From positions 1 through 38,618 of the IMG/VR virus record IMGVR_UViG_3300044568_001772: a DNA stretch of 38,618 nt. One strand, 5' to 3'. Origin of the DNA: a virus. Each line of letters opens with the position of its first letter. Positions within the stretch are counted from its first letter, which is position 1. The position numbers and the translations under genes are program-made. The notes under the pieces were generated by a model. It made no database searches, was not told where the DNA came from, and saw nothing but the letters and a program-made list of their open reading frames with translations. This document shows positions 6,372 through 34,438 of this stretch, in pieces.

Positions 6372-7186
6372 CAGGTGACAGTATACCCTGCTGCGACTAG
6401 CTGGTCTTTTTCGGTTTGGTCTACAAAGTATTCGTGACCGCCGTAATACACTTTGTCTACGAGTGTGGGGTCTAACGGATCGGTGTTGGTGTATGCACCG
6501 GTGTTGAGCCGGAAGATGTTTCTTGCCCGATATCCCTGGTTGGCTTTGGCGAATAGTCGGTGGGCGGGTTCGGAGTTACGGTAGTCATCCCACGGGAATC
6601 GGTCTTCAACGGGTGTGCGGAAGATCAACGATTTAGTCCAGGTAGCAGTTTCGGTTGATGCCCCTGAACCAGTAGCGGTACGAATATAAACGATCCCGCT
6701 AAGGGTGGCCGCTGTTCCTAATCCTGAGCCTGTTGCGGTTCTAGGTGCGATGTGAACACCGATAGCAGTATCACTGGTTGTTGACCCTCCAGCACCGTAA
6801 GCGGTACGCAAATTCTTGTGGAGGATACTGTTGAGCGATGTGCCTACGCCTGAACCTGTAGCAGAACGTGGAGCGATGTGGAGTCCGGTGGAATCAAATC
6901 CTCCTACGCCTGATCCTGTAGCGGTACGGACTGGTACACGGATACGGGTAGCTGACTCTGTACCTGTTCCTGAACCTGTAGCAGAACGAACTGGATTGAT
7001 ATTCGAGTCAGCAGTTTCTGTACCTGAACCTGAACCTGTACCGATTCTTGCTCGTGTAACCGACGATACTGCTGTCTCTGTACCAGTACCCGAACCTGTA
7101 GCCGTATTCGTAAATGTGACTACGCCGTTGTATGAAAGATTACTAGCGTTATAAAGAAACGAGGAGTCGTTATACAGGCGAGGCAT
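6371..7186 (-). CDS. Repeat-containing tail fibre/spike protein
   Basis: A 271-aa protein built of Gly/Ser/Thr-rich repeats of about 20 residues, each carrying R(T/S)ATGSGxGTxT, spanning residues ~10-190. A C-terminal module is shared with the 95-aa neighbour. The repeats look like an extended fibre shaft. At DNA level several units are spaced exactly 60 bp apart. The ATG at 7186 overlaps the upstream stop as TAATG. Confidence 0.65.
   Translation of the reverse strand: MPRLYNDSSFLYNASNLSYNGVVTFTNTATGSGTGTETAVSSVTRARIGTGSGSGTETADSNINPVRSATGSGTGTESATRIRVPVRTATGSGVGGFDSTGLHIAPRSATGSGVGTSLNSILHKNLRTAYGAGGSTTSDTAIGVHIAPRTATGSGLGTAATLSGIVYIRTATGSGASTETATWTKSLIFRTPVEDRFPWDDYRNSEPAHRLFAKANQGYRARNIFRLNTGAYTNTDPLDPTLVDKVYYGGHEYFVDQTEKDQLVAAGYTVT
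6851..7110 (-). repeat. 60-bp tandem repeats inside the fibre gene
   Basis: On the + strand, copies of CTGAACCTGTAGCRGWACG-like units begin at 6851, 6911, 6971, 7031 and 7091, exactly 60 bp apart; more diverged copies start near 6667 and 6723. They encode 20-residue shaft repeats and could expand or contract by slippage or recombination. Confidence 0.8.
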
Positions 7187-22414: not shown

Positions 22415-23221
22415 ATGAGCATGGAAGCAATGGGGTACGTGTATCGACACTCCCCTTACAAAGGCGCAGAGTTTGCAATCCATCTAGCGATAGCTGACAG
22501 CGTGAACGATCAGAACCACAACACGTTCTGGATGTCCATAGCGAAACTCGCAAACAAAAGTAGGGTCTCCCGAAAGACAGCATCTTTTGCTGTAAGCAAA
22601 ATCGCCGTGGATGGATTTTTGGTGTTAGAGAAAGAACGCCCAGGGGGAACAAATCTGTACCGTTTCGTGTTTGTCGATCAGCCTGTCGTGTATGAATCAC
22701 GCACCACACCCCCAGGTTACAGTTATCCACAACCCGTAACGTCAGGTAACACCACCCGTAACGTCACGTTACACCACCCGCTACCTGAGGTAACACCACC
22801 CGTAACGTCAGGTAGCACTAACCCAATAGAACCCAAGAAGAAACCAAAAGAACCTCTCTCATCCAAATCATTCGATTTGGAATTTAATGAGTTCTGGGCG
22901 ATCTACCCACGCAAAGAAGGCAAAGGAGTCTGCAAAAAGAAATTCGACAAGATCGCACAAACAGTAGACCCCCAAATCATTATCAGCGCAGCCCACATCT
23001 ACGCACTCCGACGCAAAAATGAAGACCCACAATACACCGCCCACCCAATCACATGGCTCAACCAAGAACGATACCTTGACGAACCCAACCAACCCATAGA
23101 GCAAAAAATCGTTGAACCACCCAAACCCGAAGAACCATGCACCAACCCCGACTGTCGAAACAGCTGGATATTCCTACCCGACAACACCGTCACCAAATGC
23201 CCAACATGCAAAGGAAACTAA
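22415..23221 (+). CDS. Lambda-O-like replication initiator with internal origin
   Basis: A 268-aa protein. Residues ~1-90 form a winged-HTH DNA-binding domain (GYVYRHSPYKGAEFAIHLAI, ISIAKLANKSRVSRKTASFA-like helix pair). A Pro/Thr-rich linker follows (residues ~97-140), then a C-terminal domain with EFWAIYPRKEGKGVCKKKF and YTAHPITWLNQERYLDEP, typical of phage replication/helicase-loader proteins. A terminal zinc ribbon is visible (CTNPDCRNSW ... CPTCKG). The linker DNA holds a DnaA box and four iterons, as in lambda O. It probably binds these repeats and recruits host helicase. The next gene starts 1 base after its stop. Confidence 0.8.
   Translation: MSMEAMGYVYRHSPYKGAEFAIHLAIADSVNDQNHNTFWMSIAKLANKSRVSRKTASFAVSKIAVDGFLVLEKERPGGTNLYRFVFVDQPVVYESRTTPPGYSYPQPVTSGNTTRNVTLHHPLPEVTPPVTSGSTNPIEPKKKPKEPLSSKSFDLEFNEFWAIYPRKEGKGVCKKKFDKIAQTVDPQIIISAAHIYALRRKNEDPQYTAHPITWLNQERYLDEPNQPIEQKIVEPPKPEEPCTNPDCRNSWIFLPDNTVTKCPTCKGN
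22723..22731 (+). promoter_or_regulatory. Perfect DnaA box
   Basis: TTATCCACA matches the high-affinity DnaA box exactly and lies 1 bp before the first iteron, inside the initiator gene. This suggests that the origin recruits host DnaA. Confidence 0.75.
22733..22820 (+). repeat. Four tandem 22-bp iterons (putative origin)
   Basis: Units begin at 22733, 22755, 22777 and 22799, each 22 bp with no spacer. The type unit begins CCCGTAACGTCAGGTAAC. Unit 2 has a near-perfect palindromic core, GTAACGT-C-ACGTTAC; unit 3 is diverged but keeps TACCT-g-AGGTA. Because 22 is not a multiple of 3, the repeats are read in shifting frames, so conservation acts on DNA rather than on protein. The arrangement copies lambda oriO. 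Confidence 0.85.
22863..22880. other. AT-rich inverted repeat beside the iterons
   Basis: CCAAATC-attc-GATTTGG lies in an A-rich, low-melting stretch (22820-22900) directly after the iterons, where an origin would be expected to unwind. It is still within the initiator coding sequence. Confidence 0.4.
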
Positions 23222-23222
23222 A

Positions 23223-23984
23223 ATGAACACACCCCGAACACTCGTATGGTTCTCAGCCGGAGCAGCATCCGCAATCGCCGCCAAACTCACCATCGCCCAA
23301 AACCCACCCAACCTAGTCATCGCATACACCGACCCAGGATCAGAACACCCCGACAACGAAAGATTCCTAACCGACTGCGAAAAATGGTTCGGCCACCCCA
23401 TAATCCGACTCAAATCCAAAAAATATGTTGACACCTGGGATGTCTTTGAAAAAGAAAAATTCTTAGTATCACCATACGGGGCAAGATGTACAGCAGAACT
23501 AAAAAAACGAGTACGGCAAGATTACCAACAACACGACGACATCCAAGTATTCGGATATACGGCTGAAGAACAACATCGAGCCGACCGCTTCAGAGAACAA
23601 AACATAGAAGTAGACCTACGCACCCCACTCATTGACTACAACCTCACCAAAGACGACTGCATCGCAATGGTACAAAGAGCAGGAATTGAACTTCCCGCAA
23701 TGTACAAACTTGGTTACCGAAACAACAACTGCATCGGATGCCCAAAAGGAGGTATGGGCTACTGGAACAAAATCCGGCGAGACTTTCCCGACACCTTCAA
23801 TCGCATGGCCCAGGTAGAACGAACCCTCAACATCTCCATACTCCGATCCGAAAACCAACCAGTCTTCCTCGACGAACTCGACCCAACCAGAGGAAACCAC
23901 GCCGACGAACCCTCATTTGAATGTTCCCTGCTCTGCACAATCGCAGAACAAGACATCGAACTCTCAACAAACACCGACTACTAA
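23223..23984 (+). CDS. PAPS reductase-like (PP-loop) protein
   Basis: A 253-aa phage phosphoadenosine-phosphosulfate reductase family member. It has a PP-loop variant WFSAGAASAIAAKL (residues 9-22, in place of SGGxDS), IAYTDPGSEHPDN, SPYGARCTAELKKRVR (83-98), FGYTAEEQHRADRF and the C-terminal NNNCIGCPKGGMGYWNKIR (168-186). The ATG at 23223 has AAGGA 7 bases upstream. In phages this family is common but its substrate is unsettled: sulfate assimilation, tRNA or DNA thiolation (DndC relatives), or nucleotide chemistry. It is coupled to the replication initiator. A second Cys pair (CSLLC) is near the end. Confidence 0.8.
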   Translation: MNTPRTLVWFSAGAASAIAAKLTIAQNPPNLVIAYTDPGSEHPDNERFLTDCEKWFGHPIIRLKSKKYVDTWDVFEKEKFLVSPYGARCTAELKKRVRQDYQQHDDIQVFGYTAEEQHRADRFREQNIEVDLRTPLIDYNLTKDDCIAMVQRAGIELPAMYKLGYRNNNCIGCPKGGMGYWNKIRRDFPDTFNRMAQVERTLNISILRSENQPVFLDELDPTRGNHADEPSFECSLLCTIAEQDIELSTNTDY

Positions 23985-27953: not shown

Positions 27954-27982
27954 ACCATAGGGCTAACCTCCTATGGTTTTTT
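27954..27982 (+). terminator. Intrinsic terminator of the rightward operon
   Basis: ACCATAGG (27954-27961) pairs with CCTATGGT (27970-27977) over an 8-base loop and runs into TTTTTT. It lies where the rightward and leftward operons converge, overlapping the WhiB stop codon. Confidence 0.85.
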
Positions 27983-28417
27983 GTTGCGAGCAATCCTGCT
28001 TTTGTAGGTTGCAATTCTGCTTGTTTCTGATCGCTGGAGTTCTTCGGCTACGACACCGTGGATCAGTCGGAGTAATTCGGCTAAATCTTCGGCTCGTTTA
28101 GTTTCTTCTGGCGGTAATGGTTTACGTGCCGCTGATCGAATGGTGACTCGCTGAGATGGCAGTGTTCCACCGTAGACCCCGTGATTATCTTGATCCTGCG
28201 GGAACGATAGGGCGTAATCAAGGCATTGTAGGCGCACCGGACAACCCGCTATTCCTGTGGTTGCGCTCAATCCTGTGTTCGGATCAACGACTTCGGCCAG
28301 TGTGCCGTTGCAGAATGTGACTGCTTGGCGTTGTGTGTGGATGTCGCCGTTCTCAGCAAAGAACAGGCGGGTGTCTGTGCCACGGCATAACGCTTCTTTT
28401 AGCCACTCTTGGTTCAT
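27971..28417 (-). CDS. WhiB-like transcription factor with insertion
   Basis: A 148-aa WhiB-family protein. Cys11, Cys36, Cys59 and Cys65 are candidate ligands for a [4Fe-4S] cluster, and GVYGGTLPSQR matches the G(V/I)xGG turn before the basic DNA-binding tail. Oddly, the usual central C-x-x-C is replaced by C-x22-C, an inserted loop (NGTLAEVVDPNTGLSATTG) between ligands two and three. It is the last gene of the leftward operon, coupled to the 56-aa gene by ATGA. Phage WhiB proteins can interfere with host WhiB regulation; the target here is unknown. Confidence 0.8.
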   Translation of the reverse strand: MNQEWLKEALCRGTDTRLFFAENGDIHTQRQAVTFCNGTLAEVVDPNTGLSATTGIAGCPVRLQCLDYALSFPQDQDNHGVYGGTLPSQRVTIRSAARKPLPPEETKRAEDLAELLRLIHGVVAEELQRSETSRIATYKSRIARNKKP

Positions 28418-28584
28418 TGTTTGCCTTCGTATTCGCTTTTAAGTCGAAAAGCATTTACGCATATATCAAAGTCGTCGTCAAAAGAATCTTCTTCATGATG
28501 GTTAAACCCGCTATCGTGTTTTAAACAGAACCACCATAGATAGTCGTGGTCTATCCCGTATTGCACCCATTCTTCTTCGGTCAT
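28414..28584 (-). CDS. Small acidic protein
   Basis: A 56-aa protein with ATGA overlaps at both ends (with the methyltransferase and WhiB genes). MTEEEWVQYGIDHDYLWWFC is followed by a His/Asp/Glu-rich segment (SGFNHHEEDSFDDDFD). No family was recognised; tight coupling suggests co-regulation with the methylase. Confidence 0.65.
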   Translation of the reverse strand: MTEEEWVQYGIDHDYLWWFCLKHDSGFNHHEEDSFDDDFDICVNAFRLKSEYEGKQ

Positions 28585-29687
28585 GTTATCTCCAATATTT
28601 TTTTGATATGTTTGGCAACCCATTTTGCTACTGGTGTTGCGACTCCGTTGCCGCATTGTTTTAGGCGCACAGTGTCTGCTTGTTCTTCACCGTTTGCTGT
28701 CCAACGGGTATGATCGTCAGGCCATCCTTGTAATCTTTCACATTCCAATGGGGTAAGTCGACGGACAGACAAGTCTATGTTGGCTATTGACGGTGCTTGT
28801 TGAGAAGCTTTTAATGTTGGTGTCTGATTTTCAAACACTGCGGCGTTGCTGCCGAACTGGGTGTCAAAAGAATAAATAGGTTGCGGTTCTGCAATAAATA
28901 TTTGTGCGTGATGTGATTGAGGTGATGGTATTAAACCGTTTAAACATAACGCTGTGTCTGTTTGTGTTGCACTGAATGTGTTGGCTTTAGCATCTTCACG
29001 TATTGAATATGCGACAGGTGTTAAACTTGTTTGTTCATCACTTGTGTTAGTGCTTTCATTAATAGTTCTGGCAAGATTTTGCCTCGCCGTTCTGCTCTTC
29101 TTAAAATCCCCTCGGCTGCCTTCGGTGACAGGTAACAGCGTGTCGGGACATCTTGCGGCGGCTGAAGTATCGAAGATAGCAACGACAAATATTCTTCTTC
29201 GTCGCTGGGGGACTCCGAAGTATTGTGCATCCAGGATTGACCAGTGGATGTCCACCGCCCCGCACTCTGCCAACGTGTCGAGGACTTGCCCGAAGTCGGC
29301 TCCGTTATTAGATGTGATGGCCCCTGGTACATTTTCCCAGACGACGATTCGGGGGTAAACAGATTCAGTTGCATTTCTCATCTCCTTGATGATACGGGTT
29401 GCTTCGTAAAACATTGATGACCTATCACCTTCTAAACCTGCTCGTTTGCCGGCGACGGATAGGTCTTGACATGGTGAACCAAATATGAGTACGTCACATG
29501 GCGATACTTCTGCACCGTTGACTTCTTGCACGTCTAACCATTTCGGTACTTCAGGCCAGTGACGATTAAGAATTTTTTGGCATGACTTGTCCCATTCCAC
29601 TTGGAATACGCACTCGTACGATTCCTGGTCAAATCCAAGGTCAAAACCGCCCACGCCTGAAAACAAACTGCCATAAGTTAGTTTCAT
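28581..29687 (-). CDS. C5-cytosine DNA methyltransferase
   Basis: A 368-aa Dcm-type enzyme. Motif I FSGVGGFDLGF is at residues 9-19, motif IV GSPCQDLS has catalytic Cys73, motif VI is WENVPG, motif VIII is PQRRRRIFVVA, and the C-terminal motifs are RRLTPLECERLQGWPDDH and QCGNGVATPVAKW. The target-recognition region is ~190-290. The ATG at 29687 has AGGA 6 bases upstream. No partner restriction enzyme is nearby, so it is an orphan methylase, probably protecting phage DNA or imitating host methylation. It is coupled to a tiny membrane peptide by TAATG. Confidence 0.92.
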   Translation of the reverse strand: MKLTYGSLFSGVGGFDLGFDQESYECVFQVEWDKSCQKILNRHWPEVPKWLDVQEVNGAEVSPCDVLIFGSPCQDLSVAGKRAGLEGDRSSMFYEATRIIKEMRNATESVYPRIVVWENVPGAITSNNGADFGQVLDTLAECGAVDIHWSILDAQYFGVPQRRRRIFVVAIFDTSAAARCPDTLLPVTEGSRGDFKKSRTARQNLARTINESTNTSDEQTSLTPVAYSIREDAKANTFSATQTDTALCLNGLIPSPQSHHAQIFIAEPQPIYSFDTQFGSNAAVFENQTPTLKASQQAPSIANIDLSVRRLTPLECERLQGWPDDHTRWTANGEEQADTVRLKQCGNGVATPVAKWVAKHIKKILEIT

Positions 29688-29764
29688 TATTTTCCTGCTT
29701 TCCATATAGCTGCTATAAGAGCAACGCTATGGATGATGATGAGTGCTGTTAAGAATGTGTCCAT
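29687..29764 (-). CDS. 25-aa membrane peptide
   Basis: MDTFLTALIIIHSVALIAAI then WKAGK: one hydrophobic helix with a basic end. The start overlaps the WhiB stop as TGATG and its stop overlaps the methylase ATG as TAATG, so it exactly fills the gap. It may be a real membrane peptide or merely a coupling ORF carrying ribosomes to the methylase. Confidence 0.5.
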   Translation of the reverse strand: MDTFLTALIIIHSVALIAAIWKAGK

Positions 29765-31180: not shown

Positions 31181-31331
31181 TGACGGACTCCAATGGTATT
31201 CGCTGTTGCCGTTTACTTTTACAAGTGTGCATTGGCACACCGTTCAACGGTACATGGGTTACTAATGTTGTCCGACATAGGGGACACCACCAGTTTACCA
31301 AATGGACATCAGAAAGGTTCTTCGTCATCAT
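31146..31331 (-). CDS. Possible small zinc-ribbon protein
   Basis: A 61-aa frame overlapping the SSB end and the nuclease start. WWCPLCRTTLVTHVPLNGVP and MHTCKS give a CxxC ... HxC metal-site pattern. No clear ribosome-binding site is present, and the start is uncertain among two ATGs and a TTG. It is retained because of the Cys pattern and because it bridges the gap between two genes. Confidence 0.4.
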   Translation of the reverse strand: MMTKNLSDVHLVNWWCPLCRTTLVTHVPLNGVPMHTCKSKRQQRIPLESVNEQAKAKRDSV

Positions 31332-31692
31332 CAATTACATCTGCATGCAGGGCTTTTGCGGCACGAGCAGTGGGGTCACTAGCACCCCAACGTAACGATA
31401 CAGCTACTTCGTCAGCGATAACTTCGACACGCTTGCCTTTTGTTCCGTCTTTCTTTTCAAAGTTTTCAATCTGCAAACGACCAATAACAATTACACGAAC
31501 ACCTTTACCAATTTTGTCGGCAACACTTTCTGCCTGTTCACCAAATACCACGATGTCATGCCAAGTTGTTTTCTTGTTGTCGTCTTTACCAGAAGTGTCA
31601 GCGACACTGAATTTGAGGATCGCTAAATTAGCCGGCGTGTATTTCAGTTCGGGGTCTCGCCCTACGTTCCCTGCGATAGTGATGTTGTTCAT
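31309..31692 (-). CDS. ssb: Single-stranded DNA-binding protein
   Basis: A 127-aa OB-fold SSB: MNNITIAGNVGRDPELKYTP, FSVADTSGKDDNKKTTWHDI, VVFGEQAESVADKIGKGVRV and VIGRLQIENFEKKDG are standard family segments. It ends with an acidic tip, DDDEEPF, which in bacterial SSBs recruits partner proteins. The start overlaps the annealing-protein stop as ATGA, the usual pairing of recombinase and SSB in phages. Confidence 0.92.
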   Translation of the reverse strand: MNNITIAGNVGRDPELKYTPANLAILKFSVADTSGKDDNKKTTWHDIVVFGEQAESVADKIGKGVRVIVIGRLQIENFEKKDGTKGKRVEVIADEVAVSLRWGASDPTARAAKALHADVIDDDEEPF

Positions 31693-32333
31693 TTGTTTTG
31701 GCTCATTTCTTTGAAGGCGGCACGAAGTTTGTTCATGTCGTCGTTGGTTACATTGGATAAATTAACGCCAGCGTGATCGGCTACTTTGTCGTGATCGAGG
31801 TTTGCATCAGCGCATGCTTTAATGAACTTGCCGATGATCTCAGGATCAACAGGGATCGTTGATGTTACTTCAACGTTCGCTACTGGTTTTGGTGCTGGCT
31901 TGCGGGCAGGAATACTTTTTTGTGGTGCTGGTGCGTGACCGCCCAGGTCTTCCCATTCGTTCTTAGTCCACAAAGACAAGCTGATACCGAATCGCATAGC
32001 GGCGTTACGCAAGAAGTCACCGACAAGTTCTTTGTCGAGTTCTTGTTTGTCGGCACGAACGCTACCAACACCCAACATTTTCTTACCATAAATGGTGAGG
32101 TATCCCCACATGGTAGCCATACCGTTTTCGACATGAATCGCTGGTCGACCGTTGTCCCATCCGCATGGTTCGTATGACCACAGTGGATCAATCTCAATGA
32201 GGATACGGGTGATGTCTGCGTGACCAACAAAATCTAATTGCATACCACCTTTAGGCAGTTTGCCAACAATCTTCGGGTCTGGGACTGCGTAGTTAGATAA
32301 AATATCTTCTAATAATTCTTTTTTGTTTTCCAT
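31689..32333 (-). CDS. Rad52/ERF-like single-strand annealing protein
   Basis: A 214-aa protein. VGHADITRILIEIDPLWSYE, TMWGYLTIYGKKMLGVGSVR, LVGDFLRNAAMRFGISLSLW and KNEWEDLGG follow the pattern of phage Rad52-type/ERF annealing proteins (aromatic core, then R-F-G-x-x-L-x-L-W). An Ala/Pro/Lys linker and a small helical C-terminus follow. With SSB directly after and the YqaJ exonuclease upstream it completes an exonuclease-annealase pair. The subfamily is uncertain. Confidence 0.7.
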   Translation of the reverse strand: MENKKELLEDILSNYAVPDPKIVGKLPKGGMQLDFVGHADITRILIEIDPLWSYEPCGWDNGRPAIHVENGMATMWGYLTIYGKKMLGVGSVRADKQELDKELVGDFLRNAAMRFGISLSLWTKNEWEDLGGHAPAPQKSIPARKPAPKPVANVEVTSTIPVDPEIIGKFIKACADANLDHDKVADHAGVNLSNVTNDDMNKLRAAFKEMSQNK

Positions 32334-32350: not shown

Positions 32351-32965
32351 TTAATTTAACACAGGTTGTGTACTTTTAAATAACATCTTAATAAGTTTGG
32401 GCGTATTTACATCAGGCCCAAACTTAATATACGTACCGTCAACACTATCAACTCCCCACATGAAAGCTAACTTCATGCGTTTGGTGCTGTTAACTCTACC
32501 CATATGAACGTGTTTATTTCTGTCTTTTGCTTCACCAGTTATACGACGGGCTGTTTCTGACAATTTGTATTGTGTTGTTCCACCGATGAACACGCAATCT
32601 AATTCATCCCAAGGGATCGAACCACCGTTTTCTCCGTCTTGTAAAACATAAGTTGCTTTATGCCCCATGTTTTTTACATGACCGGAATGGATATCCCACA
32701 GTAATCGAGTTTGCAAAGCATCTCCTACGACATCAGGGACTACGGTAAACAATGGTTTTGAAGGCCATTTGTCTAACCATTTTTTCCATTTGGTTTCATT
32801 CCAGTTAGATGAGTAGCAACCGTTGTCTGCGGCTGCTACCCAATCTGGGTCACCCAATGTGTATTGTCCATGAGGTGTTGGTGTAGCCATGAAACCGATC
32901 CCTGCGTTTTGAAGCATTTGTTTTAAGTGTGGTTCTTTAGGAAGTGCGCCGCTGAGATAAATCAC
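32351..32965 (-). CDS. DpdA-like 7-deazaguanine DNA transglycosylase
   Basis: A 204-aa TGT-superfamily protein. AAADNGCYSS (Asp47) corresponds to the substrate-binding D-S/T-G-G region of tRNA-guanine transglycosylases and VVPDVVGDA (Asp78, Asp82) to a catalytic acidic strand. CVFIGGTTQYKLS, HVHMGRVNS and DSVDGT are signatures of the phage branch. It is half the length of tRNA TGTs and lacks their zinc-binding region, as expected for phage DpdA enzymes that swap guanine for preQ0-type bases in DNA. It starts at GTG, overlapping the transporter gene by 29 bases. Acting on tRNA instead is the alternative. Confidence 0.72.
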   Translation of the reverse strand: MIYLSGALPKEPHLKQMLQNAGIGFMATPTPHGQYTLGDPDWVAAADNGCYSSNWNETKWKKWLDKWPSKPLFTVVPDVVGDALQTRLLWDIHSGHVKNMGHKATYVLQDGENGGSIPWDELDCVFIGGTTQYKLSETARRITGEAKDRNKHVHMGRVNSTKRMKLAFMWGVDSVDGTYIKFGPDVNTPKLIKMLFKSTQPVLN

Positions 32966-33470
32966 GGTTGTAAATCCAAATCAGTAGTCCAGCCAACAAG
33001 CTGACATATGCTTTGCCGATTACTTGTCCTTGCCAAAACATCGTTGACCCGAAAGCAATCTGGAGGAATAGTAAGGAATCGACTACGCCACCAATGATTC
33101 CTGATACAACTACTGCGGTCACAATCCGCTTTTTATGTAGTGGTGTGTAGACACAGAAGTCAACTAGTTCTCCGATTGCAAATGCGATAACTGAAGCTGT
33201 CGCAATATTTTTATCTGCAAGCAAATAGGAAATTAGTGATCCTAAACCGATGGCGATTAAAGCAATCTTTCGCCCTGAGACACGTTGAATAATGTCTCGT
33301 GCAAATAAAGCGAAACCGATTAGTAAGACTCCTGATGGTGCGGAGTATCCGAAACCGACAGGTATTGTGTGTGGGCCATCTGGAAAACTTTGAGTTCCAA
33401 TATTAGAAATCATCCAGTTGGCTGCCGGTATTGATAAACAATAAACTGCAAACGCTAAAATCTTTTTCAT
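32937..33470 (-). CDS. VUT/YhhQ-family queuosine-precursor transporter
   Basis: A 177-aa integral membrane protein with about six hydrophobic helices. Family marks are ANWMISN near the N-terminus, IPVGFGYSAPSGVLLIGFAL, FARDIIQR, GELVDFCVYTPL and VVDSLLFLQIAFG, matching YhhQ-type importers of 7-cyano-7-deazaguanine. The ATG at 33470 (TAATG overlap) has AAAGGAG upstream. It overlaps the DpdA-like gene, so the phage may import or boost uptake of the base that DpdA inserts into DNA. Confidence 0.8.
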   Translation of the reverse strand: MKKILAFAVYCLSIPAANWMISNIGTQSFPDGPHTIPVGFGYSAPSGVLLIGFALFARDIIQRVSGRKIALIAIGLGSLISYLLADKNIATASVIAFAIGELVDFCVYTPLHKKRIVTAVVVSGIIGGVVDSLLFLQIAFGSTMFWQGQVIGKAYVSLLAGLLIWIYNRDLSQRRTS

Positions 33471-34438
33471 TATTTTTCTCCTTTGAATCGCATTACTCTG
33501 TATTGGCTTGTTTTCTGGTATTGATGGAACAACTCTGGCTTCTCCGAGGCGAGCAACTTGCTGTCGAAGGAGGTCTTGGATTGGGGTTTCCACGAAACTA
33601 CCTGCTTTCCGTTTACGACACCATACTGGTTGTCTTTTAATAGTAAACCGATGGTTGCTTTCAACTCATCTTCTTCAACACCCAACAACTTCTTTTGTTG
33701 CTGGACTTCACTTAACCGTGTGAACACTTCAGCGTACTCAGTGAGATCGGCTGTCTCACTACTGGAGTCCACATATGCGGCTGACACTTCTTCGTATGTT
33801 GCAGGCCATTCGGCAGGGATACTACCGAGTTTGATCCACCACACAAACTCTGTGACAGCACCAATGTGCAACAATTTTTCTTCCATAGTGACCGGTTGAC
33901 GGTGAACATGTAGGTCGAGGGTACTGTCAAAGATACCCCAAATGATTTCGTCTACGTTGGCACAGATAGCTTGATGTACACCCTGCCAGTACCAGTAGCG
34001 AGGCAGTACGCCATCCCATTCACGGTTGTAGGTTTTGATTTCGGCAACAACTTTAGGTAGATCAAACGCTGACCCGAAACCTTTGAGGTATGACTCTTTG
34101 TCTACACCATCAAGGGTCGCAACCATTGGGCTACCAGAGTTCTCAATCGCATACATGACTGACGGTTCGATCAGTTCAATACCGATCTCGTCACCGAGCC
34201 ATTCAAGAAGTGTGGCTTCCAAACGGTTGCCTCGTTCCATAGCACGATTCGTTTCAGTAACAACAGGCTCATCAACCATCTTCGCTACAGCCAAACCGTA
34301 CTTACTGATGAACCGATGTTCACCGTGTACAGCAGCAGCTTCCGATGCTGAGATACGAGGGTTACCTTCCTCGTCACGATGTCTGGCTTTAAGCCATTCC
34401 ATCGAACCGTGGGGTGGTTTAATAAAAGTTGATGACAT
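33470..34438 (-). CDS. YqaJ-like recombination exonuclease
   Basis: A 322-aa member of the YqaJ/lambda-exonuclease PD-(D/E)xK group. Segments visible are GSMEWLKARH, RISASEAAAVHG, ERGNRLE (Glu74), MVATLDGVD (Asp110), VAEIKTYNRE (Glu133-x-Lys135) and YWYWQGVHQAI. The C-terminal third is a coiled helix plus strands. It degrades one DNA strand to load the annealing protein encoded two genes later. A promoter precedes it, and the GAGAGAGAGAGATT leader precedes its ATG. It heads the exonuclease-transporter-DpdA-annealase-SSB operon. Confidence 0.85.
   Translation of the reverse strand: MSSTFIKPPHGSMEWLKARHRDEEGNPRISASEAAAVHGEHRFISKYGLAVAKMVDEPVVTETNRAMERGNRLEATLLEWLGDEIGIELIEPSVMYAIENSGSPMVATLDGVDKESYLKGFGSAFDLPKVVAEIKTYNREWDGVLPRYWYWQGVHQAICANVDEIIWGIFDSTLDLHVHRQPVTMEEKLLHIGAVTEFVWWIKLGSIPAEWPATYEEVSAAYVDSSSETADLTEYAEVFTRLSEVQQQKKLLGVEEDELKATIGLLLKDNQYGVVNGKQVVSWKPQSKTSFDSKLLASEKPELFHQYQKTSQYRVMRFKGEK

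Follow-up and report, generated by a model that had tools for sequence, protein, structure and literature searches.

Whether phages without genes for preQ0 synthesis modify their DNA by means of an imported precursor has been an open question since 2019. This question is raised by two overlapping genes on the minus strand of IMGVR_UViG_3300044568_001772, a linear virus contig of 38,618 nt (38.6 kb) that may be a fragment and that was analysed over its full length (the window). One gene encodes a YhhQ-type membrane protein and the other a small DpdA-like protein. We put the probability that the two genes form a salvage cassette by which phage DNA is modified with 7-deazaguanine at roughly 60%. 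Judged from the sequences, such a cassette is probably real and functional.

The first gene of the pair (32937..33470, minus strand) encodes a Vut_1/QPTR (YhhQ-type) predicted queuosine-precursor transporter of 177 aa. Translation most simply starts at the ATG at 33470, which overlaps the stop codon of the preceding recE-like gene (TAATG) and lies 7 nt after an AAAGGAG ribosome-binding site (33478..33484, minus strand); the GTG at 33593 proposed by the ORF lister is unnecessary. The protein scored 41.4 bits against Pfam family PF02592 (Vut_1), above the cut-off of 27.2, and matched phrog_4899 with an E-value of 2.8e-34. TIGR00697, the NCBIfam equivalog for queuosine precursor transporters, gave 34.1 bits and thus stayed below its cut-off of 50.95. 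Using hhalign, a profile of 35 phage Vut_1 members matched E. coli YhhQ with 96% probability (E 4.9e-9), and the AF2 model of the transporter (pLDDT 92.1) contained six helices. The proposal of a six-helix VUT/YhhQ-type protein, made in an initial annotation of this DNA, was borne out by these results. When its fold was searched, nothing beyond weak similarity to components of ECF type emerged (E 0.07 at best). The membrane protein resembles an importer of a queuosine-precursor base, in a family (QPTR) whose members differ in substrate (PMC11130926).

The second gene (32351..32965, minus strand) encodes a 204-aa protein that we place provisionally in the TGT superfamily as a minimal, DpdA-like member. 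It starts at a GTG at 32965, 29 bp ahead of the end of the transporter gene, and stops at 32351. The two frames overlap at positions 32937..32965 (minus strand), and the initial annotation had both genes and their overlap exactly right. The overlap possibly reflects translational coupling; it is identical in the relatives L013, L014, L016, L017, L069, L026 and L028 (L numbers denote homologous loci). The protein belongs to PHROG 15826, a family labelled "unknown function" (E 7.7e-46). Pfam returned no family at E ≤ 1, including PF23859 (DpdA) and PF01702 (TGT), and the canonical phage DpdAs P0005, P0010 and P0011 likewise failed to match PF23859. Neither sequence nor profile searches against solved structures gave a relevant match.

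To examine the relationship with known transglycosylases, we compared structures and profiles. The AlphaFold2 model of the enzyme was a TIM barrel (pLDDT 94.5), and TGT structures ranked near the top of a fold search with this model (Z 14.9, rmsd 2.9). Pyruvate kinases, epimerases and other TIM barrels scored equally, so the fold by itself proves nothing and was rejected as proof of a TGT. By hhalign, a profile of 62 relatives matched a six-sequence profile of phage DpdA-type proteins with 93.7% probability (E 1.8e-7), and three canonical DpdAs alone with 78.9%. The alignment of the enzyme and DpdA-type profiles paired DNG, PDVVGD, GG and HxGRVN of the enzyme with DSG, xDxIGD, GG and HxFGIT of DpdA, the aligned positions being D47, D78, G128-G129 and H154. 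Two sequences bridge the families: P0015, a 226-aa phrog_887 protein encoded beside the Vut_1 gene of a phage, has a second match, to phrog_15826, and the short TGT of L044 matches phrog_887 at E 1.5e-4. Together, these similarities support a relationship of the enzyme to phage DpdA. The earlier description of a short, DpdA-like TGT-superfamily protein with the motifs ADNGCYS, PDVVGD, GGTT and HMGRVNS holds as regards the motifs, all of which are present, and the profile relation to DpdA; structure prediction, to which the same annotation had looked, confirmed a barrel but was not specific for TGT.

Residues D47, D78, Q109, G128, G129 and D176 are invariant across 62 homologues. Four elements of this set follow the catalytic order of TGT (D, D, GG, D) as D47, D78, G128-G129 and D176. 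The last of these, in the motif GVDSVDG, would correspond to the TGT nucleophile (D280 in GIDMFDC), an equivalence drawn by eye from the GxDxxD pattern; a MAFFT alignment that included E. coli TGT misplaced the C-terminal motif and was rejected. Q109 is part of a QDG motif that recalls the VQGG loop of TGT, and canonical phage DpdA has other residues at this place. The C-terminal zinc site of TGT (CxCxxC...H) is absent, the only cysteines of the enzyme being C50 and C124, and hhalign of the enzyme with E. coli TGT gave 0.2%, that is, no sequence match.

The pair is part of a minus-strand run that looks like a DNA recombination gene block, in the order RecE-like exonuclease, transporter, enzyme, single-strand annealing protein, single-strand DNA-binding protein and RusA-like resolvase. 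The RecE-like gene (33470..34438, minus strand; phrog_434, E 1.4e-49; PF09588, 27.4 bits) lies directly upstream of the pair, and the annealing protein gene (31689..32333, minus strand; phrog_3290, E 2.9e-50) directly downstream, followed by the gene for the single-strand DNA-binding protein (31309..31692, minus strand; PF00436, 94 bits). Among relatives that share the RecE and annealing protein genes, these shift position around the pair, which itself stays intact. Elsewhere in the window, a C5 cytosine DNA methyltransferase is encoded ≈ 2.6 kb downstream of the pair (28581-29705, minus strand; PF00145, 209 bits); such methyltransferases also occur in the flanks of several relatives. A PAPS reductase-like gene (phrog_424) is present at 23112-23984 (plus strand), and similar genes adjoin or lie near the short TGT gene in ReqiPine5, Erythrobacter phage R6L and L021. 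A WhiB-like regulator (27971-28417, minus strand; phrog_472, E 2e-12) suggests an actinobacterial host.

How widespread is this arrangement? The family of the enzyme is large: of the first 600 candidate stretches from IMG/VR, 537 encoded a relative. We analysed 80 IMG/VR loci, a sample biased towards the nearest relatives; in 63 of them, a Vut_1 gene on the same strand lies no more than 360 bp away. A pairing this frequent is not due to chance. The gene order was that of the window in 48 of the paired loci and reversed in 15. As a scale for Vut_1 in phages, of 50,697 phage records 21 were hit with one phage Vut_1 query and 73 with another, which is a lower bound. The distances between transporters were correlated with those between enzymes (Mantel test, r 0.595; 0 of 2000 permutations). 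The pair thus recurs in many phages that are unrelated to each other. It was also present in the named phages Bunnies (Mycobacterium), Aoka (Arthrobacter) and ReqiPine5 (Rhodococcus) and on contigs from genomes of Nocardia, Microbacterium, Cellulomonas and Micromonospora.

Several variations on the arrangement were seen. Remoter short-TGT-like genes from Paraburkholderia, Caballeronia and Pseudomonas genomes (L136-L181) nearly all had no adjacent Vut_1 gene. In L053, a nucleoside deoxyribosyltransferase-like gene lies between transporter and short TGT (6640-6989; PF05014, 27.9 bits, with a cut-off of 28.8). Between the two genes of L042 (6759-7004) and L056 (2096-2374), in the slot that a QueF-like gene occupies in other relatives, lie small unassigned ORFs (81 and 92 aa, respectively) whose products have a CPxD-like motif. 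The short TGT of Escherichia phage phiG7 is split across two overlapping frames (L008, 5917-6509), and the match in SHIN8 is likewise in two pieces.

We also examined how genes for import and for synthesis are distributed around the enzyme. As regards QueC, QueD, FolE and QueF, the four families searched, the window agrees with the earlier claim that biosynthesis genes are absent: none of them had a match in the 38.6-kb record, which may be a fragment. Among 50 longer records, 41 contained Vut_1 and 4 contained QueC (3 of these also QueD), and none contained both Vut_1 and QueC. One QueC-carrying locus, L029, is instructive: queC, a QueE-type radical-SAM gene and queD immediately precede the gene of the short enzyme, and a phrog_887-type DpdA was not detected in its 42-kb record. 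A QueF-like gene separates transporter and enzyme in Aoka, L055 and L079, and in L050 this place is taken by a reading frame that is QueF-like by sequence; this suggests that conversion of the imported base can precede its insertion. Phage Vut_1 genes without a short TGT (Pam5, RHph_N3_2, RHph_X2_30 and phiLM21) are 0-2 genes away from other DpdA-type proteins. Import and synthesis thus alternate around the same enzyme family, which supports the logic of salvage. We rejected a strict either/or of transporter and synthesis, since phiG7-type phages have Vut_1 and biosynthesis genes together. The tree contains few independent switches, and a phylogenetic pair test of the alternation found fewer independent pairs than significance would require.

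In the mechanism that we infer, the membrane protein would import a free 7-deazaguanine base into the infected cell, either preQ0 or preQ1, with queuine as a further candidate. The small TIM-barrel enzyme would then exchange the imported base for guanine in replicated phage DNA. D176 would act as the nucleophile that opens the glycosidic bond and D47 as the general acid/base, while D78, Q109 and G128-G129 would bind the base. As the outcome, phage DNA would be protected from restriction.

The enzyme might instead act on tRNA, the imported precursor ending up as preQ1 or queuine in tRNA during infection. The enzyme belongs to the TGT superfamily, its Q109 motif recalls TGT rather than canonical phage DpdA, and pairing of QPTR with bTGT, including natural fusions, is known in tRNA queuosine salvage (PMC11130926). 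We nevertheless consider this unlikely: the protein has no TGT match in Pfam and no CxCxxC motif, profile comparison links it with phage DpdA but gives no match with E. coli TGT, and its gene is placed between recombination genes. The main doubt about our reading comes from phages in which the short TGT coexists with a canonical DpdA, and where it may have another role, be it an accessory one or one in tRNA. Sonali, phiG7 and Vibrio phage R29Z carry the short TGT plus canonical DpdA and biosynthesis genes, and in L058 it lies beside a canonical DpdA. By analogy with two-subunit TGTs, the small protein could here assist a DpdA-type enzyme encoded by phage or host, in an accessory role or with an alternative specificity, and not be the inserting enzyme itself. 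That every catalytic position is conserved argues against such a role, as does the scarcity of candidate partners: phrog_887-type DpdA was undetected in the majority of the 50 longer viral records, the annotation of ReqiPine5 and of those flanks of Aoka and Bunnies that were read shows none, and L029 pairs its synthesis operon with the short TGT only. We regard a partner function as unlikely.

Base exchange is reversible in principle. The presence of a short TGT alongside another DpdA in Sonali, phiG7 and R29Z could accordingly mean that the enzyme removes 7-deazaguanine from DNA or tRNA, in de-modification or in recovery of the base from host RNA, and that the transporter moves the freed base. 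To this reading we give very little credence, since both the position right after queC-queE-queD in L029 and the adjoining importer-type gene fit a supply of base for insertion. Only slightly more credible, and still highly improbable, is an unrelated pair, in which Vut_1 would take up a different nutrient and the TIM barrel would have an activity other than transglycosylation. Pfam names PF02592 merely a "putative vitamin uptake transporter" and the fold search did not single out TGT, but the match to the DpdA profile and the company of QueF, QueC, QueD and radical-SAM (QueE-type) genes in relatives are hard to reconcile with it. Modification of phage DNA with a salvaged base remains our preferred reading.

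How does the pair compare with known systems? It shares with the phage DpdA systems of Rosebush, CAjan and 9g (PMC6884629) the TGT-superfamily motifs, the DpdA profile relation and a predicted insertion of deazaguanine, and in some relatives there is clustering with Que genes as well. The canonical phage DpdAs compared have ≈ 300 aa, whereas the short TGT has ≈ 200 aa and its own PHROG (15826); moreover, the former systems are fed by FolE, QueD, QueE and QueC and the window pair by a transporter. Another parallel is found in phages with DpdA only (group 3 of Hutinet et al.; Salmonella phage 7-11, Pantoea phage MED16 and Orion), which have no preQ0 synthesis genes and for which dependence on a host or exogenous precursor was proposed, as we do for the window pair; in the window, however, the reading frames of importer and enzyme overlap. 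Phages with DpdA but no synthesis genes, 76 in number, were the largest group in the 2019 survey, and uptake of a precursor from host or surroundings was suggested for them at that time (PMC6884629). Such phages are not unusual, and the view of the initial annotation that a system of this kind is usually fed by biosynthesis genes was overstated. The same study noted YhhQ genes in phages, which did not correlate with any phage group, and found dADG in the DNA of phage 7-11 but no deazaguanine in that of Mycobacterium phage Orion (PMC6884629). MED16 carries dADG (PMC8306585). No Orion-type phage was among the tblastn hits of the enzyme family. A 2023 NAR paper reportedly defined DpdA3 and DpdA4.

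A phage transporter is also found in EC151 and Seurat-type phages, whose Vut_1 (phrog_4899) was proposed to raise cellular preQ0; there, the preQ0 transporter supplements full biosynthesis and a canonical DpdA (PMC8310023). The arrangement of the window itself recurs in Bunnies (Fishburnevirus; gp54-gp55), Aoka (gp38-gp40) and ReqiPine5 (gp04-gp03), whose enzymes are 35-38% identical to that of the window; Aoka differs by its intervening QueF-like gene. In SEA-PHAGES records, Aoka gp40 and Bunnies gp55 are already called "DpdA-like tRNA-guanine transglycosylase", while the transporters of these three phages are annotated merely as membrane proteins. Given these precedents, the idea of salvage is not in itself new. 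As far as the literature examined shows, what is new is the scale, the tight and widespread two-gene linkage with swapping gene order, and the minimal-TGT subfamily.

A bolder proposal, which we hold to be unlikely, is that the family forms a separate, minimal (≈ 200-aa) class of DNA transglycosylases which, together with the importer, would tie the modification of phage DNA to the supply of a scavenged micronutrient. Most actinobacterial hosts are predicted to salvage queuine and not to make preQ0 (PMC11130926), and in such hosts the inserted base might even be queuine, giving deoxyqueuosine in DNA. Deoxyqueuosine was sought and was absent in the phages tested so far (PMC6884629).

Phages of Mycobacterium smegmatis, which are tractable in the laboratory, carry the pair, and this makes the salvage question directly testable. 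This host is reported to have neither preQ0 nor queuosine genes. If our preferred reading is true, a large gene family now labelled as unknown would gain a function, and the resistance of phages to restriction would depend on a micronutrient in their surroundings.
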